Shown here one piece after another: positions 1 through 21,537 of a stretch of DNA of 64,000 bases. The stretch covers positions 558,001 through 622,000 of the forward strand of contig JAGKQI010000098.1 of assembly GCA_018806915.1 (NCBI GenBank). The letters run 5' to 3'. Origin of the DNA: Phytophthora colocasiae (lineage: Eukaryota; Oomycota; Peronosporomycetes; Peronosporales; Peronosporaceae). Each line of letters starts with the position of its first letter. Positions within the stretch are counted from its first letter, which is position 1. A program made the position numbers and the translations under genes. A model generated the notes under the pieces. That model searched no databases and was not told where the DNA came from. It saw only the letters and a program-made list of their open reading frames with translations.

Positions 1-603
1 CGGTGCTGTCCACTAGCTCGGACACACCGACTTCCAGCATCATAGCCGACTCGGCTCGATGCTCGCGCCAATAGCGCTTCTGCTTCCTAGCAGAGGTGGG
101 TTCATGACTCGCCAAAGCTCCACTAGGAGAGAAGTGCGTAGCACCTAAGGTCTTCGACCTTCAATCAATCCATGACTCGTGGCGCTCCAGCCACGCCATG
201 CCAAGGATGAGGTCGTACCTCGAATCCAGGTCCAGGACCAAGCAGCGTTCCACGCTATCGAAGTCCAAGAACTTCAGCCGCAGGTCCATGGGGACCTTGG
301 CTGCCGTGACACGGACGCCCGTCGCTAGACGGACTGTGACTGTGTCACCTCTTCGCGCTCGAAGCGCCTCCGCATACTGCTGACTACCGCCAACGGTGGA
401 GCGTCTGACATAGTTGCCAGACGCTCCCGAATCGATCAACACGATCCACGGCTTCTCGAAGCCCTTCACGTCCACCTGACGACCAGCAAGCCCTGCTTGC
501 TCACACGTTCCGTGTTCAAGAGCACGGAGCTCTTCGGGCTGGAGCCCCCGGTGCCTCTCACGCACTGCAGAACTCAGTTCTTCCCCAGTAGACCGCCCCG
601 CGT
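1..603 (-). pseudogene. Pol N-terminus with aspartic protease, element A
   Basis: Minus-strand start of Pol in the -1 frame relative to gag. It carries the aspartic protease of the retrotransposon, with the catalytic motif LIDSGASGNYV near position 425 and the conserved tail LILGMAWLERHE. The frame is interrupted by TGA at 161-163; the homologous codon in C and D is TGG (Trp), so this is a nonsense change. The rest of Pol lies outside the window. The frame does not have the 1-nt insertion that C and D carry just before the protease. Confidence 0.8.
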
Positions 604-625
604 CTACTGGGAGCCGTCGTTTCCC
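584..625 (-). promoter_or_regulatory. -1 ribosomal frameshift signal at gag-pol junction (element A)
   Basis: On the minus strand: slippery heptamer GGGAAAC in phase G GGA AAC (plus positions 619-625), a 7-nt spacer, then a 9-bp hairpin CCCAGTAGA/TCTACTGGG (584-611) around loop CGCGGGGCGG. The gag TAG stop is inside the 5' arm. The -1 frame stays open across the hairpin and leads into protease. The arrangement is seen directly; that it works as a frameshift site is inference. Confidence 0.7.
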
Positions 626-1575
626 TGGGCAGAGCCCGAAGCGGGACTCGCGGCAGGGTTGCGACCAGTCTGGCCGGCGCGCTCTTTGCGCAGAGGGCAG
701 TTGGGCCTCAGGTGTGTGGGACTACCACACGTGTAGCACCGACGAGTGCTCATACGCTGCACCGCAGCTCGTAGCTCGGCTACTTCATCTTCAGCATAGC
801 TGAGGTCCATGGGCTCGGGTCCCCCGGACCCTGTGCTGTTAGCACCGACCCTCGACAACTTAAAGTTGTGTTCAGCATTCAATGCCACGCTAACAGCGTC
901 CTCGAAGGTGCGAGGATTCTGACGGAATGCCTCCGTCCTGGCCACGCCAGCTCTCAGACCTTCCATGAAGATAGTCACAGTGACCACCTCAGGTAGAGGA
1001 TCGGCAGCCATGCCGGCAATGAGCGTGCGCAGCTCTTGGACATAGTCCACCAGGTCCTTCTTGCCCTGTCGGCAAGCAAGGAAGCGTGACCGCACGCGAT
1101 ACGCCTGGTTAGGTGGAGCAAACACTTGCGTAAGCTTGGCCTTTAGCTCACCCCAAGTGGGGAAGACCATTTCTACCGACGTCCCAGACGTCAAAGCCCA
1201 TTCTCGCGCTCGCCCTTCGAGCTTAGAGATGGCGAATGCCACGCGTTGGCCTTCCAACTGGAGCATAGCGTCCCCCATGGTCATTTCGACCTCTCGGGTC
1301 CACAACAGGAGGTTCTCTCCTTCGTGCCCGTGAAAGGTCTTCACGCTAAGCGTGACGGGCTTAGCTCTCGGAGCGGGATTAACTCCTTTTACATTCCGCT
1401 GAATGTGCTCAACGAGAGCGTTCTCGTACGAGGCAAATGCCTCCAGGCGCGCGTTGACGGCCTCCGGCCCTTGAGACGCAAGGTGCGCCATACCTTCCGG
1501 GCCCAGCAAGGACGTAAGCTTGTTAACCGTGTCCCGCTGACTCGGAGTCAAGTGAGCGTATGCTTCTGGCTCCAT
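604..1575 (-). CDS. Gag polyprotein of element A (intact)
   Basis: A 323-residue Gag precursor that would form the retrotransposon particle and bind its RNA. The central part is a Ty3/Gypsy-type capsid region (motifs [37 protein letters not shown]). The C-terminus has a CCHC zinc knuckle, CYTCGSPTHLRPNC. The ATG at 1575 is chosen over an upstream GTG; it follows the LTR and primer site by about 55 bases. The ORF ends in TAG inside a conserved hairpin, and pol follows in the -1 frame. Copies C and D share a 1-nt deletion that this copy lacks, so this is the least damaged gag of the family here. Confidence 0.88.
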   Translation of the reverse strand: MEPEAYAHLTPSQRDTVNKLTSLLGPEGMAHLASQGPEAVNARLEAFASYENALVEHIQRNVKGVNPAPRAKPVTLSVKTFHGHEGENLLLWTREVEMTMGDAMLQLEGQRVAFAISKLEGRAREWALTSGTSVEMVFPTWGELKAKLTQVFAPPNQAYRVRSRFLACRQGKKDLVDYVQELRTLIAGMAADPLPEVVTVTIFMEGLRAGVARTEAFRQNPRTFEDAVSVALNAEHNFKLSRVGANSTGSGGPEPMDLSYAEDEVAELRAAVQRMSTRRCYTCGSPTHLRPNCPLRKERAGQTGRNPAASPASGSAQGNDGSQ

Positions 1576-1632
1576 TCTCACAGAGAAACAGTCTTCAACT
1601 CAGGAGTTGGATTGACTACAAGTGCTACCAGA

Positions 1633-2042
1633 TGCAGCGGGGCTGCGTAGGTGTGCACCACACAGAGGAAGTTTAGTTGACTCGTAGAGTCTTGCTTGCA
1701 AGGCACCAGCCTTCGGTTCTATACAAGAACCAAGTAGTCCACTAAATACGGGACTCACATAGTCAGTGTCCCTATAATAAAGGACTAACACTAATTATGT
1801 AAAATGCAAACTGATTTTTATTTACTTTATTGCCCTAATCCTAAATGTAACGGATTTAGTATCTAGCATACTAAATCCTAACCAAAATGCAATGTGTGGC
1901 TCTCAGCCAATCTCCCCCTCACATGGGTACATGTGACGTGTGAGATACGATGTGTCATACACAGATCTGTGACGTGTGACCTGGCCGGTGTATACCACAC
2001 CAACTGTAGCCAAGGCGCGCAGCGCCGTGTAACCCCGTTACA
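1633..2042 (-). repeat. LTR of element A
   Basis: The LTR starts TGTAACGGGG and ends CCCGCTGCA on the minus strand. The first 15 bases form the palindrome TGTAAC-GGG-GTTACA. It is rich in short hairpins, for example GGATTTAGTA/TACTAAATCC and GGTTC/GAACC. The sequence TGGTAGCACTTGTAG two bases beyond the LTR is the putative primer-binding site. Confidence 0.85.
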
Positions 2043-2044
2043 GC

Positions 2045-2590
2045 CTGCTCATAGCTTACTTCTTCCTACTACGAAGGTCAGAATACTTGGTGGTTCAAAA
2101 GACTCGGTCATTTTACTGCCTCAAGTTCAAGGACGTTTACTTCACGGACGCACAAGGACGCGTAACACCAGTAGACAGCGCCACCGCAGTCACTATCAGC
2201 CTGAGCGGTGCGAAGAACGACCAATTCGGGCGTGGTGCATTACGAACGATTCACCGCTCGGGTGAATCCCGGTTGTGTCCCGTTAGCCCTCAAGCATATC
2301 CACAAGGCGCGTCGACAACTCAAAATGGCGAACTCCCACCACCTTTGCCTGGATCTTGACACAACGACCGTGGACAACGCTCTCAAACGCGTTGCTCGCA
2401 AAGTAGGTGCACCTCCGTCCAACTACGCCTCTCACTCGCTTCGGAGCGGCGGTGCTACGGCTCTTCTACGAGGCTACGTGGACAGTCTTGCAATCAAACT
2501 GCTTGGTCGGTGGACCTCCCGATGCTTCGAGGAATACCCAGTGCAGTCGGCAGCTTCAACAACAATGTTGGCACGGCGGATGGTCTGATG
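2045..2590 (+). pseudogene. Tyrosine recombinase fragment (Crypton/DIRS-like)
   Basis: C-terminal catalytic domain of a tyrosine recombinase of the kind found in oomycete Crypton- or DIRS-like elements. It would cut and join DNA through a covalent tyrosine intermediate. The first active-site Arg sits in LLRRSEYL (about 2060-2085). The H-x-x-R box is SHSLRSGGATALL (about 2430-2467). A Trp in LGRWTSRC and the candidate nucleophile Tyr in FEEYP follow. A frameshift near 2270 splits the domain. The N-terminal DNA-binding half is missing because LTR A abuts at 2042. It is a different family from the recombinase at 2990-4296. Class assignment rests on motifs only. Confidence 0.7.
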
Positions 2591-2989: not shown

Positions 2990-4296
2990 ATGAGCCTCCA
3001 AGACCTCACACCAGTAAACTCGCAGCGCGCTGAAGACAGCTATCAACACCTTCAGCCGCTTCCTCGCCAGTGAAAGGGTCACCATGGACTTCATCGCCGC
3101 CTCTCTTGTGGGTGACTCCAGTGGGTCGGTATTTGTGAAGCTCATGGATCGCTTCGGTGTGTATTTATTTGGCCTTTGTAGAAGGCCGACGGGGGAAGCC
3201 GCTAGCACGGAATTCGGTAATGAGTTACTACCGGCACGTAAAGAACTGGTTGCTCGATCCTACCCAAGACACAGGGCAAGCATCGAAAAGAAGCTGCTGA
3301 AGATGGCCCAGACTCTCGAGCGGAATTGCCTCAAGCGTGTAGAGGGAGGGATTATCAAGAAGGCACCCATGGACGGACTCTACTACGACGCCTCAAGCGC
3401 TAAGGACTATCAAGATGCGGCTCTGCTTGCTCTCATGTGGTACGCGTTCGGCCGTGCCTCCGACCTGGGCTTTGTCATGAAAGGAAATTTGTCTGTCAGT
3501 GCCGATGGAGTGGTTTTCGTGCGGTTGATTCGAGTGAAGACAGCTGAAGAGCAAGGTATTTCGCTTTCCCTGACAAGGCCAGCTTCATCACATGCCCTCT
3601 TCACTCAATCGCGATGGCGTTAGCTATGCAAGATCGTCCCTGCGCACAATTGCTCGACCACCCTCATCTTGCTGCTGGGAGCGACGAAGATATGACAGCT
3701 CCGATTGACATTCCGCTAACTGAAGCACTAGCTACATGCGATGACGTCGAGTACGCAAGTGAACCACCGCAGAAAAAGCGCAAGCAGACGGAAGATAACA
3801 TGAAGATACACGCGTACGTCAACCGAGTTGTCAAGTGTGCATCTGAAGCCCAAGCAAAAGCCAAGCCAACTGCATGATTGACATCTCATTCATTTCTGCG
3901 AGGAGGAGCTCAGCATGCAAATAGTGATCCACTGTTAAGTGCGCAATTGATCGTGGCTCATGGAATATGACGGCAACCAACAAGGCATTCGCGTACGTGT
4001 TCAACACAACAAGTGAAGACCAGAAGGTGTCAAGGGTTCTCAGTGGGTGGGACTCAAGCAAAAAGCCACCGGTACCAACTCTGTCGTGGTTTGACTCTAC
4101 AAGTCGCCAGCTAGCGTTGGAACTTGGCAATCTCCTGTTTCAGTCAAGCGTTTGTATCCAAGACAACGAGAAAAGGCTGAATGGGCGTGTAGCTGAAGTT
4201 CTCGTTGCCTCGTTGATTCAACACTTTCCAGAAGTACTTGAGCGCTACCCAATGTGTCTCTACGCAACAAGAATGAGGGAGTGTTTGATGACACTA
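2990..4296 (+). pseudogene. Crypton-like tyrosine recombinase, 5' part (split by element B)
   Basis: Recombinase relic running from an ATG at 2990 to the insertion point of element B; it resumes at 12346. Visible parts in order: an N-terminal helical region (INTFSRFLASERVTMDF), a core with DAALLALMWYAFGRASDL (about 3415-3470) where the active-site Arg is expected, the box HSFLRGGAQHAN (3887-3922), and WNMTATNKAFAYVFNTTSEDQ (3961 on), whose Tyr is the likely nucleophile. Frameshifts occur near 3055, 3560-3615 and 3930-3950. Crypton recombinases integrate elements without DDE chemistry. Decay was under way independently of the B insertion, because the frame is broken upstream of it. Confidence 0.75.
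4292..4296. repeat. Target-site duplication of element B, left copy (CACTA)
   Basis: CACTA immediately precedes the TG of the 5' LTR and recurs at 12341-12345 immediately after the 3' LTR. Five bases is usual for Ty3/Gypsy integration. Confidence 0.95.
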
Positions 4297-4756
4297 TGTA
4301 ACGGGGTTACACGTACAAGTGGTTGTACCACTTGTAACTCTAACAGTTAGGATAACTGTTAGAGGTTGGAAATGGGCCTCAGACCTTGGTGTGCTGTACA
4401 CACCAATGGATACATGGGCGAACCACATTATTGGATGGTTCGTGTGCATTTGTGCATATTATTGGTAGAAAGTAACGGATTTCTACCAATCACTGAGCAG
4501 AGTTTCTGCCAACCACACGTTGGCAGACCCTTTAGAAATAGATAACAAACAGTTTTAGGAGGTCCATAATTGGCTTATGCCAAATTCAATAACAGTTCTC
4601 ATTTTACGGTATTTTGCAGTTTAATTTAGTTATATTTGATTTAATTATACTTATTTAAATAAGTATACTTAAATTAAGTCTATTCTAATTGCACGCTTCC
4701 TCATACACGTAAGCGCACGTGTACGCCATCTAATAGGTCTAGGTAGACCCATTACA
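4297..4756 (+). repeat. 5' LTR of element B
   Basis: Begins TGTAACGGGG and ends CCCATTACA. It is an almost continuous chain of hairpins: 4297-4311, 4314-4336 (10-bp stem), 4338-4364 (11 bp), 4386-4406 (8 bp), 4419-4442 (7 bp), 4461-4490 (11 bp), 4505-4527 (8 bp), 4570-4583 (5 bp), 4646-4667 (perfect palindrome), 4704-4723 (7 bp) and 4731-4754 (9 of 10 pairs). Confidence 0.96.
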
Positions 4757-4758
4757 CC

Positions 4759-4774
4759 TGGTAGCACTTTGTAG
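4759..4774 (+). other. Primer-binding site of element B
   Basis: TGGTAGCACTTTGTAG begins two bases after the 5' LTR. Its TGG would pair with a tRNA 3' CCA end. The same start, TGGTAGCAC, is found in E (51154) and, with one T fewer, in A. The tRNA could not be named from sequence alone. Confidence 0.7.
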
Positions 4775-4805
4775 TCCGTCCCACGACCGACTGCAGTTCG
4801 TTCGT

Positions 4806-5788
4806 ATGGAGTCATACGAACGCGGGGTCGAGAACTCCCCAATGGATCAGGGATCCACTGGGACCCCACACATGTCCGTGACGCGCACGGACTGTGCCCA
4901 CCTGTCGGACCCAGAGTGGGAAGCTCTCCAAATACTTTCGCAAGTCATTGGAGAAGCGGCGGTAGCGACGATGCTTCGTACGCTATCGCCGACACGGCAA
5001 CATGGTGTTGCTCTGGAGTACATTGTTAAGGAGCAACGGGATGTTGCTGCCTCGGTGGCTTCTCCGAAGCCACGCGTGGAGTCGTTGAAACTCCACGTGA
5101 GTACCTACACGGGGAAGGAGGACAAGACCCTCCTTCGTTGGCTTGTCGAACTTGACACAGCCGTTGCGGCTCGACGTATCGTCGATCCGATGTCGAAGGT
5201 CGCGTTCGCCATGTCATGTCTTGGCGGACGTGCGAGGAGTTGGGCCTATGGGCGCCGACTCTCCGATGCTACGTGCTTCAGCACGTACGAGGAGTTCAAG
5301 GAGGAACTCAAGCTTGCGTTTGAGCCTCCGAAGAACGAGTTCAGATCGAGAGCGGAGTTTCTCGATCTGCAGCAGGGCAAGGATGATGTTCACACCTTTG
5401 CCCAGCGTGCTCGATACTTGGTATCGAACATAGTGGCCAACCCGATCGACGAGGCGACCAAGGTCGTCACGTTCATGAAGGGACTAAGAGATGGTCCTGT
5501 CAAGACGTATCTCTTCCGAGAGTATCCGAATACTCTCGAAGAGGCGATCAGCCTTGCAATGCAAGAGGAGTTTAGCCGGCGTCAAGCTAAACTCCATGCG
5601 AACGCGCCGAAGCCGGCGCGTCCTGTTGTGAAGACGGGAGGTCCGGAACCTATGGACCTCTCGAGTGCTACGACTGCTGGTCAACAGCAGCGTAGGAACA
5701 GCAGGTTCGATGTTACAAGTGTAGTAACATCGGTCACTATGCACGCGAGTGCACAGCGGGCGGGCGTTCAAAACGCCAGGACCAGTAG
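4806..5788 (+). pseudogene. Gag of element B (one frameshift)
   Basis: Gag precursor of about 327 residues. The capsid-like core includes LGGRARSWAYG, FEPPKNEFRSRAEF and GKDDVHTFAQRARYL, matching the order seen in A and E. The zinc knuckle CYKCSNIGHYAREC (5711-5752) lies in a different frame from the N-terminal 300 residues. A 1-nt deletion just before it, about 5690-5708, explains this. In the knuckle frame gag ends at TAG 5786-5788, inside the same hairpin that carries the stop in the other families. If the upstream frame were used instead, translation would end at a TGA after the hairpin and skip the knuckle. Confidence 0.82.
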
Positions 5789-5807
5789 GCGCGGGGCGTC
5801 CTACTGG
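5767..5807 (+). promoter_or_regulatory. Degenerate -1 frameshift signal (element B)
   Basis: TTCAAAA (5767-5773, phase T TCA AAA), an 8-nt spacer, then hairpin CCAGTAGG/CCTACTGG (5782-5807) with loop CGCGGGGCGT. The gag TAG (5786-5788) is in the stem. Geometry equals that of E, but the heptamer is not canonical because its first triplet is TTC. The heptamer itself lies in a small hairpin, GGCGTT/AACGCC. Confidence 0.5.
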
Positions 5808-6441
5808 TGATGCAGTCTCGCGTGTCGAGCTTGGACACGCGACGATGAGGACTGCTGCCCCCAGCGAGAAGGTTTCTCGCTGTAAGCTGCAAGATGACAA
5901 GCCAAACCTTGTCATCCTGAACGTGATGTCGAAGAGAGCGAACTCTCTTCGTGCCCTAGTGGACTCGAGCGCGTCGAACAACTTTGTTCGACAGGAAAGT
6001 CTTCGAAGGCTTGACTTCGAAGAGGCCGACACGCCTCGCGGCGTGTTGGAGGTGCGGTTGGCAACAGGTGCCACCGTGAGGACTGAGAAGCGCGTAGTCC
6101 GTGTGCGCTTCTCTTACAAACGAAGGACGTTTGCAGAAGATCTTATCGTCTTGGATCTAGACGATAAGTTCGACTTGGTATTAGGCATGCCGTGGCTTGC
6201 ACGGCATGACCCGGTGATCAACTGGGAGAAGCGTACGCTCGTACGCTTCAACAACACATGCGCGACAGAGAGCAATGGCCCTGTCAGTGCTGCACATGCA
6301 CCGGCCGGTGCATGTAAATCCCCAGTTGAGGCAGCAGCGGCCGCCGCTGCCTCCGATCGCCGCCGGCGACCATCAACGACTCCGGGAGTCGTTGTGAGAA
6401 AAAGTGTGTCGACTCAGAAATCTGAGCCGAAGGGTCGCGGT

Positions 6442-6600
6442 CACATGAGTGATGGTCAGGTGAATGTGAATCACCTGACGCATAAACATCTGAATGATGT
6501 TTGTCACATGAGTGATGGTCAGGTGAATGTGAATCACCTGACGCGTAAACATCTGAATGATGTTTGTCACATGAGTGATGGTCAGGTGAATCGCATTCAC
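6442..6600 (+). repeat. 63-bp tandem repeat in Pol hinge (2.5 copies)
   Basis: Units start at 6442, 6505 and 6568; the third is partial. Each full unit encodes 21 residues starting HMSDGQVNVNHL. Inside each unit are inverted repeats GTCAGGTGA/TCACCTGAC and AAACATC/GATGTTT. Confidence 0.9.
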
Positions 6601-6679
6601 CTGAGAGAAGGTAAAATACCGGTATTACCGGTATCCTTTGAGGTACTTCAAGCCCCCAAGGGTCGCGCCGACGACGTCG

Positions 6680-7015
6680 CGTCAACTCTGGGAGTTGACG
6701 AAATAAATAAAATTCGGGGAACCGAAAGGCGTGTGTCAGCTCTGGGAGCTGACGCCACTGGCGCGTCGCCGCTAGTTCTGGGAACTAGCGATCGTGCATC
6801 AGCTCCGGGAGCTGATGATGCGTGTACAGGCGAACATTCGCTGCTAGTTCCGGGAACTAGCGATCGTGCGTCAGCTCTGGGAGCTGACGATACGTGTACA
6901 AGCGAACACTCACTAGCGCAGGAAGCTAGCGAGAGCACGTCGACTCCGGGAGTCGACGATGCGGTTGCTTCATCCGCTCCGGGAGCGGATGGAGGCGCAG
7001 CGGTTCAGGGAACCG
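6680..7015 (+). repeat. Array of nine near-identical hairpins in Pol hinge
   Basis: Nine perfect inverted repeats with 6-9 bp stems and 3-nt loops TGG, CGG or AGG: 6680-6700, 6735-6753, 6770-6790, 6797-6817, 6843-6861, 6869-6889, 6938-6958, 6971-6991 and 7001-7015. Most have the core CTC-YGG-GAG or TTC-YGG-GAA. Each encodes a version of the peptide Ser-Ala-(Pro/Leu)-Gly-Ala-Asp or Leu-Val-(Pro/Leu)-Gly-Thr-Ser. Confidence 0.93.
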
Positions 7016-10000
7016 ACTGCGCGGCAGGAGGTGCTGGCGGTTGCAAACGCCCAGCACCCGAACAACCTGCGTGCTCACGTGCAGCAGCGCTGCACGCGAT
7101 GAGCGGCACTCAAGCCGGGTTTGATAGTGCGAGTCAGCGGAAGGAATCCGCTGACGATTGCGATAACGTCCCGTCCAAGGTGCGATGCCTTGGACGTGGA
7201 GCACCTGGAGCCGGGCTCCATGGTAGACCTTCGCGGCGCAAGCTCAGGGAGCTGCGCGAGTCTCAGTCCGGGACTGAGACGGGTGTATCTGCAGTGCAGA
7301 CACCGAGTGTCGAGACGTTGAACGTCTTGACACGTACTGGTACTGGGTTACAGTACCAGAGGATGCGGTTGGAGAATCCGCCGACGTGTGCGTCGGCGTT
7401 GACCGCACTTCCAACGATGAGTTGGAAGCGCTTCGCGCGGGACTTGTACGATGGACGCATCGAACAAATTTGCATTCTCTCGGATATCGAGAGAGTGGAG
7501 CGCGAGGCCGAAGAGCTAAAGCAGCTCGTCGTCGATGGGATCACTGAGGGTGATGACTCCCTCAGTGCAAAGACTAAGAAGCAGCGCTTCGAAGAGCAGA
7601 GTTGGGACTCGTTGAGGTCGAGTCCCTACTACGAAGTTCTACGGGAGTACAAGGATGTACTCCCGGACGAGATTCCTTCGGAGCTTCCGAAGGACAAGGG
7701 CGTACAGCACGAGATTGATCTCGTGCCGGGCACGAAGTACTGTGTTACACGGCAGTGGCCACTGCCGCGTGAACAAGTGTAGCGATCGACGACTTCTTTG
7801 AAAGTCGTCGTCTTGCAGGTCAAGTGCGGGAATCAAAGTCCCCGCACAGTGCTCCAACGTTCTGTGTTAAGAAACCACAGGGCGGCTGGCGCATCGTTCA
7901 TGCGTATAACAAGCTGAACGATGCGACGATACCGGCGCAGACGCCGATACCGCAAAAAGATGTTATCATCGATTCGATGGCCTTGAGCACTATCTTCAGT
8001 GCTCTAGATCTGCGTGATGGATTCTACCAAATCCTCATGCGTGAGAGGGACATCCCTCTCACAGCGGTAAGCACTCCAAGCGGTATGCTTTGGGAGTGGC
8101 TCGTCATGCCGCAGGGACTTAAGAACGCCCCTGCGACGTTCAATAAATGCGTGACACATCTATTGCGCTCGGTGCGCGACTTCGCACCAAGCTACTTCGA
8201 CGACGTGTTCGTCCACAGCCGGGCTGTGAACGGGAAGACGGACATTGAGATGCACAAGGTGCATCTCCGGAAGCTGCTAGAGCTTATGAGGAAACATAAG
8301 CTCTATGCGAACCTGAAGAAGTGTATCTTCGGGGCGAGCGAGATACCCGTGCTGGGGTGTCTCGTGGGGAAAGACGGCGTGCGCCCTGACCCAGAGAAGG
8401 TCAGAGTGATCAATGAATGGCCCACGCCATCCAATGTGAAGGAACTGAGGCAGTTCCTTGGGCTTGCCACGTACTAGTGCAAGTACGTGAAGAACTATGC
8501 GGGCAAGATTCGCCCGTTGTCACAGCTTCTCAAGAAATAAGCTGAGTGGATTTGGACGACCGAGTGCGAGGATGCATTCGGTGCAGTCAAGCAGGGCTTG
8601 ACTGAAGCGCCGATCTTGGCCGTGGCGGACCAAGATCGTCCATTCCACGTAGTGTGCGATGCATCCGACTTTGCAATCGGATGTGCATTGATGCAACACG
8701 ATCACGAAGGGCGTGATCGTGTAGTCTACTATCAATCGCGTCAGCTGAAGCCAGCTGAGCGTAACTATCCCGTACATGACAAGGAGCTCCTTGCCATGAA
8801 GTATGCACTCGCAAAGTTCCGAGTGTATCTACTTGGGAGTAGACCGTTCGTGGTCTATACAGACCACGCATCATTGCGTACGGCGATTAAGTCGCCGCAC
8901 ATCTCGCAACGTATGGTGAGATGGTTGTCCTTCTTCGCGGAATACAACTTCTGAATGATCATGACCTCCGGTTGAGGATCATGTTCGAGTATCACGATGC
9001 CCCCACGGCAGGGCATCCGGGTCGTGAGAAGACATACACTCTTCTCACGCGTGACTTCTACTGGCACCACCAGTACAAGTGGGTGCGCGAGTACGTACGT
9101 GCTTGCGAGGTTTGTCAACGCGTGAAGCCTGCGCAGTTCTCGCAGGCTCCTCTTCAACCACTACCGACTCCGTCGGAGTGTTGGCAGTCCATGTCCATGG
9201 ACTTTGTCTTCGGTCTTCCGCCTGACAGCAAGCGGAGGACGGGCATCGTTGTCTTTGTGGACAGATTCAGCAAGATGGTTCATCTTGCTGCCGTCCCGAC
9301 TACTGTTACAGCCGCGCAGACTGCGCGACTGTTTGTTGACATGGTGTTCAAACACCATGGCATGCCGCTCGACATTGTGTCGGACCGTGATCCACGCTTC
9401 ACAGCGCGGTTCTGGCAAGAAGTGTTTACACTTCTTAGTTCACAATTGTCAATGTCGACTGCGGATCATCCGCAGACGGACGGACAGAACGAACGTGTCA
9501 ACCGCGTACTGGGTGACACGCTGAAGAGCTACGCTCACTCGTTCCCGCATTGGAGCGAGTGCTTGCCGATGGCAGAGTTTGCCATCAACAACTCGGTGCA
9601 TGCCTCGACAGGGCATACACCGTTCTACGTGAATGCCATGAGGCATCCACGGTTGCCGAGCATGCTCGGCGGGGTAGCTTCCTCCTTAAGTGGGGGAGGA
9701 TCTACGGTTGCGTCCGAACAACCGCAGAATGCAACTGATAGCAGCACACTATCAGCTGCGGTGACGCGTGCGACGTCTCGTTCGAGCAGGAACGAGCGCG
9801 CGATATCTGTGCCGGGCACAGACATGAGAGATGATAGCGAGCAGGCAGGGCCTGCTGCTGACAAGGGCGACAAGCTGAATGGATTCAGCTCGGGTGCGCT
9901 AGACTTTCTCCAGCGAAGACAAGCCGTCATACGGTTTGTCCAGGATGCTATCGCAGCTTCTGTCGATCGACAGAAGCTGAACGCTGGTACTGTTGGTAGA

Positions 10001-10232
10001 GGCAACACAAATGAATTCGAAAAGGGTTCATTAGTTTTGTTAGCTACACAAAACCTACCTAGACATGCAGTGTCTGACTTTGGAGCAAGCAAGCTTGCTC
10101 CAAGATTCATTGGGCCGTTCAAAGTACTTGAACGGCACGGCAACGCGTACCGGCTGGACATACCGTCCAGCATGAGGCTCCACCCGACCTTCTACGTCGG
10201 GCGGTTGAAGCCGTACGTGCAGCACGGACTAC

Positions 10233-11780
10233 CTAGGGTTGGTAGTCCGACTGAGCAGCGCGAGATGCCTGGAAGGCCTTCTCGAGACCGTCGACACGGT
10301 CGATCAACCGGCTCACTCTCGTCCCAAGACCGGACGAGAGGTTCGAGGCAGTCTGAGCTGCCTCGCAGACCTCAGCACGGAGGACACGAACCTCCTGCTT
10401 CAGAGCCGCTATCTCAGCGCTCTGTGTCTGCTCCAGCGCAGCAACTCGATCGTGCAGGGCACGATCGTCATGGTCATAGCGTTGACCATGCGGAGGGAGT
10501 GTTCCCACCCCCTCCGCCGCCGTTGCGCGACGCGTGTGGAGCGATCCGCTGGATTGTTGAGCGGATCGTGGCTCATAGGAGAACGAACTCTCAAGGGGTT
10601 CGTTTTCGTATTCGTTGGAGAGGATTTCCTCCCCATCGAGATACATGGGAGCCGCGGAACGTCCTGATGGAGGACGTTCCGGAAATGGTGAGGGCGTACG
10701 AAGCCCACCATAACTTGCAGGGGTAAGCCCTGCACGAGGAGTGCTGCGGTTAGCCACAGCACTCGGAGCCTCGCGTGGCACAATACGACCACGGAGCTCC
10801 TTGATGTGATCGGGTACACGGACGACCGTGTACCCCAGGAGATCACTTTCAGTGAGACGTGTTGCCAAGGGTTGGCAACACGGGCAGGGTGTGCCAAAGG
10901 GAACGGCACATGGGATCCCCGCTTCCATGGACTGATCATGGAGGCGTTCACACTTACCACGCGTAGTGTAAGTGTAGTAGCGATCGCGAGCCGCAGCAAC
11001 GCGCTCGCGATATGCCTTCGGGTCTTTGTTGAAGTTTTCAACAAAGGCGTTCCACGACTGACAAAGTGCCTGCCACTCTGGCACTTTGCTCTTGCGCGAA
11101 GTCTTCTTCGCTGCATAGTATCGGAGCTCGTGGAAGAGCCCGATATAGTAGTCGCGTCTTTGAGTCTCGGACTCAAAGACAACCTTAGCGGCGACGTCGT
11201 CGTCGTTGATACTGTTGCATGAGTACAACAGTATCGGGTTCGGTGGTGAACTAGCACCGAACCGATCATGGATTTCTGCCTCAGTAGGCGTCCATGGCGT
11301 GCGCACTGGCGGATCAGTGCGCGGGGCAGTGAGCGCCCTCGGCATGGGGGACGCTTCATCATCACTGCGCGGACGCTTCGAGCTTGAAGCGTCCGAGGCC
11401 TCATCACGAGGTCGTCGAGATCCCACGGGTGGGTCTGACGTGTCTTCGGACGAAGACACGGGAGCGGGAGCCTTGACATCAACCTCCCCATCCTCGACAT
11501 CCTCCTCGTAGTCGAGGATGTCTTCGTAGTCCTCTCCAAAGAGTTCTTTGAGAGGGACAGCAGGATTCTTAATCTCTGCTAGAGAAGAAGACTTCTTCTT
11601 CTTCTCATGCTTCTCCTTATGGAGAGCATGGTACTTGGTGACAGAGAGCTTCTCTGTCGGACCGCTGGAAGCAGCAGTACTAGTGGGCACTGCTGAGGTC
11701 GTTATTCCTGCTGCAGAGGCAGCAGGTGAGGCTTGCGCGTCCGCAGAAGCGGACGGAGACGTGGGCGTTGGCGAGTCCAT
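10233..11780 (-). CDS. Antisense ORF of element B (515 aa, coiled coil)
   Basis: Intact minus-strand ORF with an ATG at 11780, 101 bp from the 3' LTR, ending inside the pol linker; it overlaps pol by 494 bp. Seen in the protein: a Ser/Ala/Thr-rich N-terminus, a lysine run (HEKKKKSSS), an acidic stretch (DILDYEEDVEDGEVD), a central region with SWNAFVENFN and a Cys cluster (CERLH ... CAVPFGTPCPCC), then a C-terminal heptad-like segment beginning DRVAALEQTQSAEIAALKQE. No known family recognised. The ORF has no frameshift although the sense genes of the same copy have several. Transcription would need a promoter reading leftward from the 3' LTR. A structural, silencing-suppressor or targeting role are all possible; none is shown. 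Confidence 0.6.
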   Translation of the reverse strand: MDSPTPTSPSASADAQASPAASAAGITTSAVPTSTAASSGPTEKLSVTKYHALHKEKHEKKKKSSSLAEIKNPAVPLKELFGEDYEDILDYEEDVEDGEVDVKAPAPVSSSEDTSDPPVGSRRPRDEASDASSSKRPRSDDEASPMPRALTAPRTDPPVRTPWTPTEAEIHDRFGASSPPNPILLYSCNSINDDDVAAKVVFESETQRRDYYIGLFHELRYYAAKKTSRKSKVPEWQALCQSWNAFVENFNKDPKAYRERVAAARDRYYTYTTRGKCERLHDQSMEAGIPCAVPFGTPCPCCQPLATRLTESDLLGYTVVRVPDHIKELRGRIVPREAPSAVANRSTPRAGLTPASYGGLRTPSPFPERPPSGRSAAPMYLDGEEILSNEYENEPLESSFSYEPRSAQQSSGSLHTRRATAAEGVGTLPPHGQRYDHDDRALHDRVAALEQTQSAEIAALKQEVRVLRAEVCEAAQTASNLSSGLGTRVSRLIDRVDGLEKAFQASRAAQSDYQP

Positions 11781-11860
11781 TGCGAAATGAACTCGGATTC
11801 TCTCGGGAACTTGACGGTCTTGTCAAGTTCTGTTGATTGACGTATCGAGACCGATACGTC

Positions 11861-11880
11861 GAATCTTAACGGGTGGATGG
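11861..11880 (+). other. Candidate polypurine tract of element B
   Basis: The sequence GGGTGGATGG directly precedes the 3' LTR. It is weakly purine-rich compared with the tracts of C and E. Confidence 0.4.
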
Positions 11881-12340
11881 TGTAACGGGGTTACACGTAC
11901 AAGTGGTTGTACCACTTGTAACTCTAACAGTTAGGATAACTGTTAGAGGTTGGAAATGGGCCTCAGACCTTGGTGTGCTGTACACACCAATGGATACATG
12001 GGCGAACCACATTATTGGGTGGTTCGTGTGCATTTGTGCATATTATTGGTAGAAAGTAACGGATTTCTACCAATCACTGAGCAGAGTTTCTGCCAACCAC
12101 ACGTTGGCAGACCCTTTAGAAATAGATAACAAACAGTTTTAGGAGGTCCATAATTGGCTTATGCCAAATTCAATAACAGTTCTCATTTTACGGTATTTTG
12201 CAGTTTAATTTAGTTATATTTGATTTAATTATACTTATTTAAATAAGTATACTTAAATTAAGTCTATTCTAATTGCACGCTTCCTCATACACGTAAGCGC
12301 ACGTGTACGCCATCTAATAGGTCTAGGTAGACCCATTACA
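11881..12340 (+). repeat. 3' LTR of element B
   Basis: 460 bp, identical to the 5' LTR except 12019 (G; A at 4435). Followed by the second CACTA target copy at 12341-12345. Confidence 0.97.
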
Positions 12341-12345
12341 CACTA

Positions 12346-12522
12346 GGGCTATCAAGATCTCAAGTGTTGGCGTGGAGTTCCGAATTGCAGATTAAGACAA
12401 CGAAAAAAGAACTAGAGGCTGCTGAAGAAACCGAAGAGACGTTTTCGAGGGAGGTCAAGCTCATAAACCACCAGTACTGTATCATCAGTGAGCTGGTGTC
12501 AATGAACAAAGCTTTGACAGAA
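12346..12522 (+). pseudogene. Crypton-like recombinase, 3' part after element B
   Basis: Continues in frame with the ORF that ends at 4296 once B and one CACTA copy are removed. It encodes a helical, Glu-rich tail (KKELEAAEETEETF) and is cut off at 12522 by the 5' LTR of element C. The same ORF was thus hit twice by Gypsy elements. What followed it before C arrived is not visible on the far side of D. Confidence 0.75.
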
Positions 12523-12932
12523 TGTAACGGGGTTACACGGCGCTGCGCGCCTTGGCTACAGTTGGTGTGCTATACACCATCCAGGTCACAAGTCACAGAT
12601 CTGTGTACGACACATAGTGTTTCTCACATGTCACATATGTAGCCAGTTGCTGGCAGTTAGCTCAGAGCCACACATTGCATTTTGGTTAGGATTTAGTATG
12701 CTAGATACTAAATCCGTTACATTTAGGATTAGGGCAATAAAGTCAATAAAAATAAGTTTGCATTTTACATAATTAGTGTTAGTTCCTTTATTATAGGGAC
12801 ACTGATTGTGAGAGTCCCGTATTTAGTGGACTACTTGGTTCTTGTATAGAACCGAAGGCTAGTGCCTTGCAAGCAGGACTCTACGAGTCAACCAAACTTC
12901 CTCTGTGCCGTGCACACCTACGCAGCCCCGCA
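12523..12932 (+). repeat. 5' LTR of element C
   Basis: Starts TGTAACGGGG at 12523. The right edge is taken at CCCCGCA; the A copy reads CCCGCTGCA there, so the last bases and the primer site (now TCGGTAGCAC) have mutated. D shares this altered end. Confidence 0.8.
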
Positions 12933-12991
12933 GCCTCGGTAGCACTTGTAGTCAATCCAACTCCTGAGTTGAAGACTGTTTCTCTGTGAGA

Positions 12992-13962
12992 ATGGAGCAA
13001 GAAGCATACGCTCACTTGCCTCCGAGTCAGCAGGACACGCTTAACAAGCTTACGTCCTTGCTGGGCCCGGAAGTATGGCGCACCTTGCGTCCCAAGGGCC
13101 GGAGGCCGTCAACGCGCGCCTCGAGGCATTTGCCTCGTACGAGAACGCTCTCGTTGAGCACATCCAGCGGAATATAAAAGGGGTTAACCCCGCTCCGAGA
13201 GCTAAGCCCGTCACGCTTAGCGTGAAGACCTTTCACGGGCACGAAGGAGAGAACCTCCTGTTGTGGACCCGAGAGGTCGAAATGGCCATGGGGGACGCTA
13301 TGCTCCAGTTGGAAGGCCAACGCGTGGCATTCGCCATCTCTAAGCTCGAAGGGCGAGCACGAGAATGGGCTTTGACGTCTGGGACGTCGGTAGAAATGGC
13401 CTTCCCCACTTGGGGTGAGCTAAAGGCCAAGCTTACGCAAGTTTTTGCTCCGCCTAACCAGGCGTATCGCGTGCGGTCACGCTTCCTTGCTTGCCGACAG
13501 GGCAAGAAGGACCTGGTGGACTATGTCCAAGAGCTGCGCACGCTCATTGCCGGCATGGCTGCCGACCCTCTACCTGAGGTGGTCGCCCTGACCGTCTTCA
13601 TGGAAGGCTTGCGAGCTGGCGTGGCCAGGACGGAGGCATTCCGTCATAGCCCCCGCAGCTTCGAAGACGCTGTCAGCGTAGCATTGAATGCCGAACACAA
13701 CTTTAAGTTGTCGAGGGTCGGTGCTATCAGCACAGGGTCCGGGGGACCCGAGCCCATGGACCTCAGCTATGCTGAAGATGAAGTAGCCGACCTACGAGCT
13801 GCGGTGCAGCGTATGAGCACCCGCCGGTGCTATACATGCGGCAGTCCCTCACACCTGAGGACCAACTGCCCTCTGCGCGAGGAGCGCGCCGGCCAGAATG
13901 GCTGCAACCCTGCCGCGAGTCCCGCTTTGGGCTCTGCCCAGGGAAACGACGGCTCCCAGTAG
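12992..13962 (+). pseudogene. Gag of element C (frameshift near start)
   Basis: Same Gag as in A. The ATG at 12992 opens a frame that is lost at about 13071, where one G is missing (GGAAGTATGG against GGAAGGTATGG in A). From 13075 the proper frame continues through the capsid region and the zinc knuckle [14 protein letters not shown] to TAG 13960-13962 in the junction hairpin. D carries the same deletion, so it predates the duplication of C and D. Confidence 0.85.
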
Positions 13963-13982
13963 ACGCGGGGCGGTCTACTGGG
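13941..13982 (+). promoter_or_regulatory. -1 frameshift signal (element C)
   Basis: GGGAAAC (13941-13947, phase G GGA AAC), spacer GACGGCT, then hairpin CCCAGTAGA (13955-13963) / TCTACTGGG (13974-13982) with loop CGCGGGGCGG. Gag stop TAG at 13960-13962. A GCCCC at 14026-14030 could in principle pair with the GGGGC of the loop, but it also sits in its own small hairpin. Confidence 0.7.
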
Positions 13983-16900
13983 GAAGAACTGAGTTCTGCA
14001 GTGCGTGAGAGGCACCGGGGGCTCAGCCCCGAAGAGCTCCGTGCTCTTGAACACGGAACGTGTGAGCAAGCAGGGCTTGCTGGTCGTCCAGGTGGACGTG
14101 AAGGGCTTCGAGAAGCCGTGGATCGTGTTGATCGATTCGGGAGCGTCTGGCAACTATGTCAGACGCTCCACCGTTGGCGGTAGTCAGCAGTATGCGGAGG
14201 CGCTTCGAGCGCGAAGAGGTGACACAGTCACAGTCCGTCTAGCGACGGGCGTCCGTGTCACGGCAGCCAAGGTCCCCATGGACCTGCGGCTGAAGTTCTT
14301 GGACTTCGATAGCGTGGAACGCTGCTTGGTCCTGGACCTGGATTCGAGGTACGACCTCATCGTTGGCATGGCATGGCTGGAGCGCCACGAGTCATGGATT
14401 GATTGGAGGTCGAAGACCTTAGGTGCTACGCACTTCTCTCCTAGTGGAGCTTTGGCGAGTCATGAACCCACCTCTGCTAGGAAGCAGAAGCGCTATTGGC
14501 GCGAGCATCGAGCCGAGTCGGCTATGATGCTGGAAGTCGGTGTGTCCGAGCTAGTGGACAGCACCGAGTGCGAGGACCGCAGTCCTGTTGAGCGCGTAGC
14601 GCTGGTTGACAGTGAGTCAACGTGTGGGCAGAGCCCACGTAATCCCTGTTGGGAGGCACGTACTCCGCCGAGCGATGCTGGTCGTGGACCAAGTAGATCG
14701 CTGAATGTCTCTGACATTGGACCAGCTACGGTCATTGATTGTGCAGCGGCACGTACTCCGCTGAGCGACATCGGTCATCGACCGAGTGGATCGCTGAGTG
14801 TCTCTGACACTGGGCCGAGAGAGGCCGACACTTGTGCGACGGCACGTACTCCGTCGAGTGGACGTTCTTCGGCTAGACGACGACGTCGTAAGGCCCTTTG
14901 GGCGAGACGCTCTGCGTCTGAGTCGTCCGTGACGTCGAGTGCCGACGCACAGGAGGGCTGTGGGCAGCTATACACTCTGGTTGATGGATGGAGTGGACGG
15001 CAGTGCCGAAGGCAGCGTCCTGCTGGACGAACTGCCGAGTGTTGACAAGCTCCTTGAGCTAGAGGAGATGTCGTTCGCCGACTTTGGCGATGCCTTGAAG
15101 GCTGGCGAACTCGCCGAGGTGGTCATCGTCCGACCTGAAGAGAAGTTAAACTCATCGTCCCTCGTTGACGAGTCCGTCTTGGCCGAAGTCAAGAGGGCGT
15201 TGAACGCCAGGAGTGGATCGGAGATCCTCAAGAATCCCTCGGATCCCTTCTACTCCTTGCTGAAGGAATATGGAGACGTTGTCTCGAAGGAACCACCGAG
15301 TGGCCTGCCTCCTGACAGAGGCGTTCGTCACGAGATCGACTTAGTTCCCGGAACTAAATACTGCGTGGCCCGGCAGTGGCCTCTTCCTAAAGAGCAATGC
15401 GATGTCATTGACGCCTTCTTCCGTGCGAAGCACGCGGCGGGTCTCGTGCGCGAGAGCAAGTCTCCGCACTCCGCGCCTACGTTCTGTGTCAGAAAGCCGA
15501 ATGGCAAGTGGCGTATCGTTCACGCTTTTAACAAGCTCAACGCTGCCACGATTCCGGCGCAGACGCCGATTCCTAGGAAGGATGTTCTTCAGAACAACAT
15601 GGTGGGCTGCACCATGTACAGTGCGCCCGACTTAGTCGATGGCTACTATCAGCTGCTCATGCGAGCCAGTGATATTCCGCTTACAGCGGTGAGCACCCCG
15701 AGCGGTATGCTCTGGGAGTGGCTCGTCATGCCCCAAGGGCTGTCGAATGCGCCTGCAACGTTCAATCGTCTGGTGACGCAGTTGTTCAGCCCCCTGCGGG
15801 CATTCGCACAGACGTACTTTGACGACGTGTTCGTCCACAGTCAGGCCGAACACGGCAAGACTGACGTCGAGGTGCACGTGGAAACACGTGAGAGCTGTGC
15901 TCGAGTGCATGCGCACGAACAAATTGTACGCCAACGCAGACAAGTGCGTCTTTGGCGCGGAAGAAATCCCCTTCCTAGGGTGCTTCATTGGGAAGCATGG
16001 CCTTCGTGCTGATCCAGCTAAGGTCAAGGCCATTGTGGACTGGCCGGTTCCCTTGAACCAGAAGGACTTACGTAAGTGGCTGGGCTTGGCCAACTACTTA
16101 CACAAGTATAGCGAGAACTACGCTGAGTTGGCTCGGCCACTGACGGATCTCCTTAAGAAGGATGCCGAATGGGTATGGCGTGCTGAGCACGAGAGTGCGT
16201 TCACTTGTATCAAGGATAGCCTGCTTCAGGCACCGATACTGGCGTTGCCAGACCCCGCTCGTCCGTTTATCGTCGTCTGTGACGCCTCGGACTTTGCCAT
16301 CGGCAGTGCTTTGCTACAAGCGGACGCCGAAGGGCGCGAACGCGTCATTGCGTTTGAGTCTCGGCAGCTCAAGGCTGCTGAGGAGAACTATCCAGTTCAT
16401 GACAAGGATCTACTTGCGATGAAGTACGCTCTCGAATTCAGGGTTCACCTGCTCGGCTCCAAGCCGTTTGTGATCTACACGGATCATGCGTCACTACGCA
16501 CAACGACGCAGTCGCCTCACCTCTCGCAGAGGATGGCCCGATGGCTCTCCTTCTTTGCGGAGTATAACTTCGAGGTGAAGTACAAGCCTGGCAGGCAGAA
16601 CGTCCTCGCTGACGCGTTATCACGTCGCCCGGACTATGCGTTATCTCATGTCACCTCGGTGACATCGTCCGTGACGGATATGGTTCGAGCAGCGTACGCT
16701 CAGGACGACTCCTGTGTCGCGCTGCTTCAAGCTCTAGGGAGCGATGAGTTTAAGGGAGCAAAGGTGACTCTGTCACGACGCCAAAAGGCTACAGCCTGGA
16801 AGGCGGTCTGCTGTACTACAGCACGGGTCAGGATGACCCACCACGTGTGGTGGTTCCTCACGATGAGGATCTGAAGTACCGTATCCTCTACGAGGCCCAT

Positions 16901-18580
16901 GACACACCCACAGGCGGCCACCACGGTCGCGAGAAGACCTACGGCTCGGTGAGCTCCATGTACTGGTGGCCGAAGATGTACAAGGGGGTCAGCACAAATG
17001 TGCACACGTGCGAGACGTGTCAGCGGGTTAAACCCTCGCCGCATGCGGCTGCGCCTTTGGCGAGCTTGCCTGTACCCTCTGGGTGTTGGCAGTCCATAAG
17101 TATGGACTCTGTGGTTGGCCTGCCGAAGGACTCGGCAGGAAACACGGGCGTGGTGGTCTTTGTTGACCGTCTGAGCAAGATGGCTCACCTAGCGGCTGTG
17201 CCGGACACCGTCGATGGCGCTAGTACAGCGACGTTCTTTATCGATCGGGTCTTCCGCCAGCATGGGCTACCAGAGACCATTGTCTCGGATCGAGACCCCC
17301 GTTTCACGGGTCACTTCTGGACATCCGTCTTTTAAGTGCTTGGCACTCGACTGGACATGTCCACGGCGGACCATCCGCAGACCGACGGTCAGACTGAACG
17401 CGTGAACTGCGTCCTGAAGGACATCCTCCGCAGCGTATGCGCTGGAACGCCGAAGCGTTGGAGCGCTATGCTCACTCTCGTTGAGTTCTCAATGAACAAC
17501 GCGGTGCATGCCTCGACAGGCTTCACCCCGTTCTACGTGAACGGCCTTGCGCATCCGCGCGTCCCGCTCACTCCGCCACGCGGTAGCCTTGGGCTTGGTG
17601 GGGGAGAGGCTGTGCCGTCGCTCGACTCCGAGCTTGCTGATGTCAGCCCCCTTGCTGCTCGCAAGCAAGTCCATGACTTCCTCTCGATGAGGCTTAGCGT
17701 CTTACGCCGTGTGCGTGACGCAATGGCTGAAAGCCAAGATGTTCAAAAGGAACAAGCTGATGCCAAAGGCAGAAGCAACATGTGGGAGTTCAAGGTCGGT
17801 GACCACGTTTTATTAAACGCTAAGAACCTGCCTACACACGCAGTGTCAGCCGTCTTCAAGACGAAGTTGCGGCCGCGCTTCATTGGACCGTTCACGGTCG
17901 TGGCCAAGAAGGGCCTGGCATACACGCTTGACTTGCCAAAGCGTATGCGAACACATCCTGTGTTCTACGTGGGCTTGCTTAAGCCATATCGGGACCCTGC
18001 TCTTGTGAGTTCTGAGGCGCTGGCGCCGAGTCGGACGAAGGCTGCACGGCAGCAGGTGGCAGAGCCACAGGTGGTTGCATCCGAACCAACAGGTCTTGTC
18101 GATCCGGAGCAACGTGATGCTCGAGGTCATAGACCCGCTGATGCAGCACCAGAGGCGACTCAGACCGGTCCCCGCGACTCTAAGTCTCCTCGAGACCAGT
18201 CGCTAAGCGATGGGTCGGATGACCGACGTGGTGGTCGTGCTCCTTCACCGAGCCCACGCGGGTCTGCAAGCAATGCAGCGCGTCTACATTTGCAGCACGA
18301 GAACCCATCGACCGCTCGTCCTCCTCCCGCTCTGCTCGATGAGCAAGGTGAGCTTCACTATCACGTGGATCGCCTGATGGCGCGGCGTCGTCGCCGAGGT
18401 CACAACCAGTATCTGGTGAAGTGGCGAGGTTACCCTCACTCACAGAACTCGTGGGAGTTTGAGGTGCCACTACGGCAGGATTGCCCCGACGTCGTTGACG
18501 CGTATGATCGGGCACCCCCGGTGTTAGACCGCCCGTTGGGCGTGCGACGGAGTCGCCGGGTGCCAAGCACCTCCCACTAA
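13963..18580 (+). pseudogene. Pol of element C: protease to chromodomain (broken)
   Basis: Protease motif LIDSGASGNYV (14127 on); RT with YSAPDLVDGYYQ and YFDD (about 15814-15825); RNase H with CDASDFAIG, YTDHASL and the complete ADALSRRPDY linker that B lacks; integrase zinc finger (GHHGREKTY ... CETCQRVK); catalytic core (MDSVVGL, SDRDPRF, TERVN); chromodomain (VDRLMARRRR ... WRGYPHSQNSWEF). Breaks: 1-nt insertion near 14088, frame change near 15000, frame change near 15880 in RT, frame change near 16810-16870, and TAA 17333-17335. It ends at 18580 after the chromodomain. Enough is intact to place the element among chromodomain-bearing Gypsy elements. Confidence 0.88.
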
Positions 18581-19455
18581 GGTGGGAGTCCACAGGGTCG
18601 TTGCTGAGCTCAGGCTCTGACCCGTAGCTGCAATACTTGCAGCAAGCACGTCGGTGCTGTCGATGTGGCATCGAATGCTCAAACTGCAAGCTCAGTAGAG
18701 CTACATGCGCCTGGCGCGCGTGTTTCAAGGGTCTATGACCCTTTAACAACACTGGCCTATGGCCCGGAGCTTCGCGATCATGAAGCGAAGATGGTTCGTG
18801 ATGAACAACCGTCTTAATGACGTTCTCTCTAAACGGAAAGTGGTGATGGAAACGGATTCTATCCGATCACCTGACGCTGGAAGCGTTCAATGGGTATGAC
18901 TATGTCATGAGGCACTGTGGATGCCAGGGATGCCAATGCATTGGACCCCGCATGCTGCATAGCAGTAGGAGGTAGGCAAGCTCCTCCTAAGCGACAGCTT
19001 AGCTGTCTGGTGCTCGTTGTCGTGTCTACGACTGTGCCGAGCACGTGTATTCACAAGACACAGTGTCTGTGACACATAGTGGCGCTTGCGCCTGCTTCAA
19101 GGACAACTTGGGCATCAAGCCCTGCACACAGTGCTCATCCGAGGGTCACGTTAACAGTGAAGCGAGTGGGCCCCACTGCTATGTTGTTCGTGGAACCGTT
19201 GGTAGCTTGGAAGGCTTGCCCTGTGGATCACTGATCCAGTAATATCATAGATACGCCACCTGTGGCCTTCTTGCCATGCCCGTAGAGCCCCTTGACTCGA
19301 GCCAGTAGGCCCAGGTGTGTGCCAAGTGGCATCGCGTACGGAAGCGTGTAACACGCACGAGAGACAGCGCCGTCCGCGCAAGACAAGGTGCCGTGGCCAT
19401 CAGCCGATAATCGCGTCGTGTGTTTACACTTTCCGGATACGGTATCCGGAATCTT
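18581..19455. other. 3' region of element C between pol and LTR
   Basis: About 870 bp in the same position as the antisense ORFs of B and E. Only fragments are open: plus 19045-19242 with several Cys (GACACFKDN, CTQCSSEG) and minus 18180-18752 and 19151-19381. The minus strand near 19340 reads TLPYAMPLGTHLG, faintly like IPCAVPFGTPCP of the B antisense protein. It may be a decayed antisense gene; the link is weak. Confidence 0.35.
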
Positions 19456-19469: not shown

Positions 19470-19842
19470 TTAAACGGGGATGTTACACGAATGTTTCTCG
19501 TTGGTGTGTGACACACGTGGATACATTTATGTGGGTACATAATGGTGTGGCAAACACGAGTAGATACATAGATGCCTCACGTTGCATTTTGATTAGGATT
19601 TAGTATGTTAGATACTAAATCCGTTAAATTTAGGATTAGGGCAATAAAGTCAATAAAAATCAGTTTGCATTTTACATAGTTAGTGTTAGTTCCTTTGTTA
19701 TAGGGACACTGACTCTGTGAGTCCCGTATTTAGTGGAATACTTGGTTCTTGAATAGAACCGAAGGCTAGTGCCTTGCAAGCAGGACTCTACGAGTCAACT
19801 AAACTTCCTCTGTGCGGTGCACATCTACGCAGCCCCGCTGCA
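19470..19842 (+). repeat. 3' LTR of element C
   Basis: Starts about TTAAACGGGGATGTTACAC and ends CCCCGCTGCA at 19842. Its first 100 bp match the LTR start of D, not the 5' LTR of C. From GGATTTAGTA on it resembles all copies. Confidence 0.82.
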
Positions 19843-21478: not shown

Positions 21479-21537
21479 TCTCACAGAGAAACAGTCTTCA
21501 ACTCAGGAGTTGGATTGACTACAAGTGCTACCGAGGC

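Follow-up and report, generated by a model that had tools for sequence, protein, structure and literature searches.

A Ty3/Gypsy retrotransposon with a chromodomain has been described from oomycetes under the name Chronos (PMC5348765), with long terminal repeats (LTRs) and gag, protease, reverse transcriptase (RT), integrase and chromodomain regions in that order. The same order is found in element B, a retrotransposon within the 64,000 nucleotides of Phytophthora colocasiae DNA analysed here (the window). B differs from Chronos in its saturation with short hairpins and in a conserved antisense gene; the main text on Chronos (PMC5348765) does not contain the words hairpin, palindrom, inverted repeat or antisense. 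Variation among the copies of B indicates that its hairpins are likely kept by selection, in folded form, while the element is mobile, within the 3.5 kb compared.

Perfect inverted repeats in conserved coding sequence, as in B, are known from the mitochondrial genes of Nematomorpha, where the arms have a mean of 43 bp and reach 142 bp (PMC6649704). Those of B have arms of 6-13 bp, occur at about 22 per kb and extend over a whole mobile element, including its LTRs. Perfect Watson-Crick stems are also found where RNA hairpins arise and persist through template-switch mutations, whose hallmark is the compensated double change (PMC8794818). This hallmark is nearly absent among young copies of B. 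Some RNA viruses possess genome-scale ordered RNA structure, which resembles B in folding far beyond shuffled sequences along its length. However, the structures of B are discrete, short and perfect stems that show no preference for G.U pairs and are constrained only while the element is mobile. The sequence-only reading, made from the letters of the window, knew of no retrotransposon saturated in this way; our literature search, whose coverage leaves out most subscription journals, agrees in having found no such description.

Hairpin density in element B

An inverted repeat was counted if it was perfect, with a stem of at least 6 bp and a loop of at most 12 nucleotides (nt). The parts of B, and four hairpins singled out by the sequence-only reading, are listed below by window coordinates and strand.

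4292..4296, second copy 12341-12345, no strand: target-site duplication CACTA of B, recognised by eye
4297..12340, +: Ty3/Gypsy element B, with some 180 perfect hairpins that do not overlap (stems of 6-13 bp, loops of 0-12 nt)
4297..4756, +: 5' LTR (TG...CA), from BLAST with its ends set by eye, with 12 hairpins of stem at least 5 bp
4743..5810, +: gag frame (Pfam domains Retrotrans_gag and Ty3_capsid)
5728..7782, +: protease frame (Pfam domain RVP_2) with a hairpin-rich linker
7773..8477, +: RT frame (RVT_1), after which the pol frame is interrupted in the window copy
8891..10726, +: frame with integrase (rve), SH3 and chromodomain (Pfam domains)
10236..11822, -: antisense gene of 529 amino acids (aa) with no Pfam domain, between pol and the 3' LTR
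11881..12340, +: 3' LTR, from BLAST and reading by eye
5055..5073, +: hairpin with an 8-bp stem and a 3-nt loop
8247..8267, +: hairpin with a 9-bp stem and a 3-nt loop
8278..8305, +: hairpin with an 11-bp stem and a 6-nt loop
8696..8722, +: hairpin with an 11-bp stem and a 5-nt loop

B (4297-12342) contains 203 perfect inverted repeats (25.2 per kb), compared with 22.1 ± 4.1 and a maximum of 31 in 50 dinucleotide-preserving shuffles, and their arms cover 37.9% of the element versus 3.4% in the shuffles. Tiled without overlap, they amount to 180 hairpins, or about 22 per kb, which is about nine times the chance density. The saturation claimed by the sequence-only reading is thus real, but its description of B as almost entirely built of hairpins is overstated, since arms and loops together cover 47%. 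The 5' LTR is hairpin-dense, with arms and loops covering 55%; its count is 12 at a stem of at least 5 bp, instead of the eleven reported. All four hairpins that had been singled out are present, the last of them with a stem of 11 rather than 10 bp.

The texture continues through gag and pol, as had been proposed. Thirty synonymous-codon shuffles were made of each of the five open reading frames (ORFs) of B, and none reached the observed number of inverted repeats, which exceeds the shuffle mean 4.5- to 6.5-fold: 22 against 3.7 in the gag frame, 56 against 9.8 in the protease frame, 13 against 2.8 in the RT frame, 40 against 6.2 in the integrase frame and 39 against 8.7 in the antisense gene. 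The stems are perfect and end abruptly, and their lengths show a second peak at 9 bp (46 observed, 0.1 expected). The excess is local, being confined to loops of about 0-14 nt. No consistent preference for codon register was detected among the hairpins, and stem length is weakly related to the GC content of the stem, in B only.

Copies of B were sought in the genome (92.5 Mb in 105 contigs). Of the 401 candidates from the DNA search 40 were scored, namely the window copy and 39 further ones with 95-97% identity. Thirty loci, one of them the window copy, were fetched; hairpins are seen at all of them, with a coverage of 0-8% in most flanks and 11-23% in some.

Variation among copies and the folding strand

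The 30 copies of B were compared over the following stretch, in which inherited variants avoid stem pairs that can fold.

4297..7800, +: stretch compared across 30 copies of B

Variants found in a single copy (singletons) were taken to be mostly post-insertion, and variants shared by at least three copies to have passed through transposition (inherited). Stem pairs were defined by their neighbours only; a definition on the window copy biases the test. Copies locally less than 75% identical to the window (85% in some versions) were dropped, and locus L001, which is the window itself, was left out. A column or pair was kept only if at least 20 copies could be read there (15 for the choice of pairs). 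Sites within other inverted repeats of stem at least 5 bp were removed from the outside class.

Inherited variants occupy 5 of 456 stem sites and 98 of 1687 sites outside, a ratio of 0.19 (block bootstrap 0.04-0.41), or 0.25 (0.06-0.54) after the repeat-rich region 6400-7020 is omitted. Singletons are spread evenly (55/456 in stems, 194/1687 outside). At third codon positions, inherited variants are found at 2 of 124 sites in stems and 58 of 467 outside. Outside stems these shared variants show ordinary protein constraint, the 58 of 467 third positions standing against 32 of 948 first or second positions.

The innermost pairs of hairpins with loops of 0-2 nt cannot form, because fold-back needs about three unpaired bases. 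Pairs with a gap below 3 nt carry an inherited mismatch in 11 of 23 cases, a fraction inflated by the choice of the longest stem, which affects outermost and innermost pairs equally. The corresponding numbers are 9 of 449 for interior pairs, 2 of 65 for outermost pairs and 4 of 45 for innermost pairs with room to fold; singletons show no such contrast between the classes. When each of the 30 copies serves as the reference in turn, the mean is 41% (25-57%) for gaps below 3 nt, 2.1% for interior, 2.2% for outermost and 5.7% for innermost pairs with room. With distance from the hairpin centre, inherited variation drops from 15% (0-1 nt) to 0.9% (4-5 nt) and is 3.3-6.6% farther out than 10 nt; singletons stay at 7.5-16% at all distances. 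One hairpin has a compensated pair beside its 1-nt loop, where the pair is unable to fold.

7206..7220, +: hairpin with a compensated pair at its 1-nt loop (CG in 22 copies, TA in 5)

The pattern speaks against a requirement for palindromic double-stranded DNA in itself. Since inherited variants avoid the foldable pairs and not the unfoldable ones, selection on the fold is supported over the 3.5 kb compared, and the copies thus point to a folded hairpin that is likely retained while the element moves.

Folding energies on the sense strand lie below those of shuffles by 23.4 kcal/mol per 200 nt in B and 21.3 in G, an element of another family described below, and above them by 1.3 in the host gene for exportin-4. 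Both strands fold far better than their own shuffles, and about equally; a slight advantage of the antisense strand, possibly due to strand composition, was not used. An ordered structure of sense RNA pairs with ordinary use of G.U. At foldable pairs of B, however, inherited mismatches are G.T in 8 cases, A.C in 7 and other in 6 (53, 42 and 53 among singletons). Internal stem mismatches over five families number 18 G.T and 22 A.C. Stems with one odd pair number 56 for G.T and 83 for A.C, B contributing 20 and 46; G alone leans to G.T (21 to 10). Because G.U is no better tolerated than A.C, folding of the sense RNA alone is not supported, and these counts suggest that single-stranded DNA, or both strands, may be what folds. 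Both RNA strands may be relevant given the conserved antisense gene of B. Of the sequence-only reading's proposal of selection for RNA structure, selection on structure is retained over 3.5 kb, in which foldable pairs are spared, and sense RNA as its sole object is not.

Hairpins in other families and the anatomy of B

The sequence-only reading had proposed a comparison of density with exportin-4 and with the long interspersed nuclear element (LINE) and the Helitron of the window. All three lie at shuffle level, with B far above them: 15 inverted repeats versus 10.8 in shuffles for exportin-4, 27 versus 26.2 for the LINE and 18 versus 20.8 for the Helitron, each also at chance level in codon shuffles. 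The exportin-4 of this genome shares 94% identity with its counterpart in Phytophthora capsici and 93% with that in P. oleae. A second LINE locus has 18 versus 18.2. Family H (L065), marked as Ty3-type by a gag-like domain together with RT, RNase H and integrase, and in which no LTRs were found within the 9 kb fetched, has 17 versus 21.6.

Other LTR families share the excess. Within the window these are the following.

12521..18900, +: element of family C (stretch as counted), 73 inverted repeats versus 18.9
50999..57766, +: element of family F, with 153-bp LTRs 100% identical, 67 inverted repeats versus 22.9
1..2057, -: incomplete family C copy (A), with 33 inverted repeats versus 5.0
19838..21815, -: incomplete family C copy (E), with 32 inverted repeats versus 5.3

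Elsewhere in the genome, family G (L064; 8237 nt long, with 99.6% identity between its LTRs) contains 174 inverted repeats versus 23.5, and family F2 contains 47 versus 17.5. C, F, A, E, G and F2 have 9.9-21.1 per kb, compared with 2.4-3.8 in shuffles. B had been named as the hairpin bearer, which is correct but too narrow, as C, F, G and F2 have the excess too. Among 30 Copia loci, nine (L040, L042, L044-L048, L058 and L060) have a coverage of 7.4-9.9% versus 2.3-4.0% in their own shuffles; the others have 2.0-6.8%, and the shuffles of all 30 give 1.8-4.5%. Ty1-type elements may thus have a milder form of the trait. Because the LINEs, the Helitron, family H and exportin-4 are at chance, the trait is a property of certain LTR families, and not of the host genome or of all retroelements.

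The stem- and loop-length spectra of B, G, C and F differ within this one genome. The excess is mostly at stems of 5-6 bp in C, at 5-9 bp in G and from 7 bp in F, with the peak at 9 bp in B, and in G it is also threefold at loops of 21-40 nt. Loops are poor in cytosine in both B and G. Insertion age does not explain the ranking of B, F and G, because their LTRs are 99.8%, 100% and 99.6% identical and all three are recent. Between families, stem pairs differing at both positions are Watson-Crick in 122 of 307 cases, about as often as control pairs outside hairpins (479 of 1286). Some centres are shared more often than by chance: those of 9 of 39 B hairpins, for instance, coincide with those of G, where about 1.8 are expected; by eye, some of these lie on protein motifs whose DNA is close to palindromic. 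The families thus probably gained most of their hairpins separately and not from a common ancestor. No DNA-level relatives from other species were confirmed in the viral_contigs and genome_contigs collections.

B is a Ty3/Gypsy LTR retrotransposon of the chromodomain type. Retrotrans_gag, Ty3_capsid, RVP_2, RVT_1 and rve, all above cut-off, follow one another in successive frames in the Ty3 order, and a chromodomain (PF00385) follows the integrase with 46.2 bits in B and 44.3 in G; it has no match at E ≤ 0.001 in F. A Pfam scan located RNase H in F and G; in the window copy of B the stretch 8478-8890, between RT and integrase, lies in no open frame. P. idaei has a relative of B whose integrase region is 72% identical. 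The antisense protein of B has 496 homologues at E ≤ 0.001, the best in P. citrophthora (83%), and all except three of the 120 listed bear a Phytophthora name. Antisense frames occupy the same place in G (476 and 358 aa, L064:5549-7953, -) and in F (329 aa, window 56596-57585, -); those of G have no Pfam match and show no clear similarity to the antisense protein of B.

The LTRs of B are 99.8% identical over 461 bp (BLAST, 4297-4757 versus 11881-12341). Their sole difference, A or G at window position 4435 and the matching site of the 3' LTR, lies inside a hairpin loop and is also polymorphic among the copies of B, about half and half; it may come from two inherited templates and so need not date the insertion. 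Within the protease frame, 6440-6604 is a 63-bp tandem repeat made of hairpins. Two loci on contig C99 (L061, L062) are mosaics that switch from C-like to B-like sequence within the RT gene, and their adjoining LTRs share 99% identity with the LTRs of B, which would fit recombination between two co-packaged RNAs. A 74-bp piece at window 27066-27139 matches the beginning of the LTR of family C (12527-12600) in inverse orientation at 96% identity and directly precedes the Helitron-like frames. The frame at window 39974-40495 (+) ends in a segment whose resemblance, judged by eye, is presumably to histone H4.

Explanations for the hairpins and their significance

We consider it the best explanation, with a probability of roughly 0.6, that selection keeps the hairpins because they fold in single strands while the element replicates, a stage at which they are predicted to protect its RNA and complementary DNA (cDNA). 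The hairpins would arise family by family through point changes and would then be retained by selection. The strand that folds would be single-stranded cDNA or both RNA strands, as the behaviour of G.U pairs suggests, and the folds are predicted to stop an exposed strand from annealing to complementary strands, namely by long-range self-pairing or to the antisense transcript or host small RNAs. Phytophthora makes small RNAs of 24-30 nt, for the most part from transposable elements (PMC3804510). It is conceivable, though we rate it rather improbable, that a Ty3 clade carries a hairpin armour, with hundreds of mostly family-specific Watson-Crick hairpins acting as a sequence-wide anti-silencing trait; both strands would be locked in local folds and unable to anneal to the antisense transcript or small RNAs, and the trait would be written into synonymous sites and held through selection on the stems.

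Several observations weigh against selection for shielding folds. The copy comparison spans 3.5 of about 8 kb and one family, B. With a looser definition of pairs the ratio rises to 0.66 (0.44-1.01), and the LTR alone shows no depletion (3/63 in stems, 6/215 outside). Between two C-type loci that are 9% apart, 0.090 of pair sites differ versus 0.112 outside (p 0.23); 21 pairs have a single change and 1 is compensated. The spacing of hairpins is about random (coefficient of variation of the gaps 0.85-1.21), without even tiling. A LINE and family H have no excess of hairpins, an observation at odds with a silencing pressure acting across the host.

One of the two explanations offered by the sequence-only reading is quasipalindrome correction, in which near-palindromes are made perfect when the reverse transcriptase folds back or changes template there; the pressure would then come from mutation, and the hairpins themselves would not be selected. 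It was our first working idea, given the abrupt and perfect stems, and was set back by the comparison of copies; we now regard it as unlikely. The restriction of the trait to certain LTR families is in its favour, as are the first two of the features of B listed here, and fold-back repair within one strand would likewise pass over unfoldable pairs.

6373..7281, +: 12 of 13 hairpin units with core TCNGGGA and covarying arms (the thirteenth at 4839-4861)
6582..6604, +: hairpin whose 3-nt loop is found in both orientations, CGC (11 copies) and GCG (8), with GAG in 6
6869..6889, +: hairpin with both arms replaced in most other copies

The arms of the 13 TCNGGGA units covary strongly (score 0.695; shuffles 0.244 ± 0.041). 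Both bases have changed in 29 cells and only 2 cells are G.U, a covariation over longer times that fits selection or template switching alike; the replacement of arms at 6869..6889 possibly came about by exchange between neighbouring units. The loop inversion at 6582..6604 is the one case among 21 hairpins with variable loops. Symmetric repair predicts that about half of the lost variants (about 11) appear as compensated pairs, yet two Watson-Crick forms occur at 1 of 232 neighbour-defined pairs and at 0 of 449 interior pairs, so that correction is not borne out. Of 678 clusters of multiple changes, 12 lay too near the ends and 666 were scored, with a gain of reverse-complement match in the rarer form counted as gain: 9 are gain-like, 34 decay-like and 623 neither. 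Comparison of arms between families gave no polarity (126 hairpins) and no asymmetry (310 comparisons, stem at least 7 bp), at low power, with about 67% identity and saturated third codon positions. Repair should also preserve perfect palindromes, yet the families have few in common. An artefact of composition, codon usage or assembly is hardly credible in view of the dinucleotide and codon shuffles, the identical hairpins at 30 loci on many contigs, and the other elements and host gene of the window at chance.

Selection on the fold could also serve packaging or assembly, with the hairpins scattered along the element as sites bound by its own Gag or integrase and a stem length preferred by each family. 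We rate this as rather unlikely. Its appeal lies in the family-specific spectra (9 bp in B, 5-6 bp in C, from 7 bp in F), in a constraint that falls in the mobile phase and in the confinement of the trait to certain LTR families. But no common loop or stem sequence is apparent by eye in the table of alleles, sites in sense RNA should tolerate G.U, which is not seen, and the sheer number of sites is difficult to accommodate. Production of small RNAs that regulate the element, also raised by the sequence-only reading, is very improbable. Inverted repeats of P. infestans have the highest small-RNA yield per megabase (PMC3804510); the stems of 6-13 bp in B, however, are below the length of a 21-nt duplex.

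Across the tested part of this transposable element, a constraint on nucleic-acid folding is seen that includes synonymous sites, and it comes with a built-in control, as the same pairs change freely after insertion. Because the pairs vary freely once inserted, genome sequence alone can reveal structures that an element needs while moving. If shielding is the role, mobile DNA would have a new means of resisting its host; if packaging is, each family would have its own set of scattered signals. Nor are the synonymous sites of such elements neutral, so that dating and selection tests that assume their neutrality would be biased.

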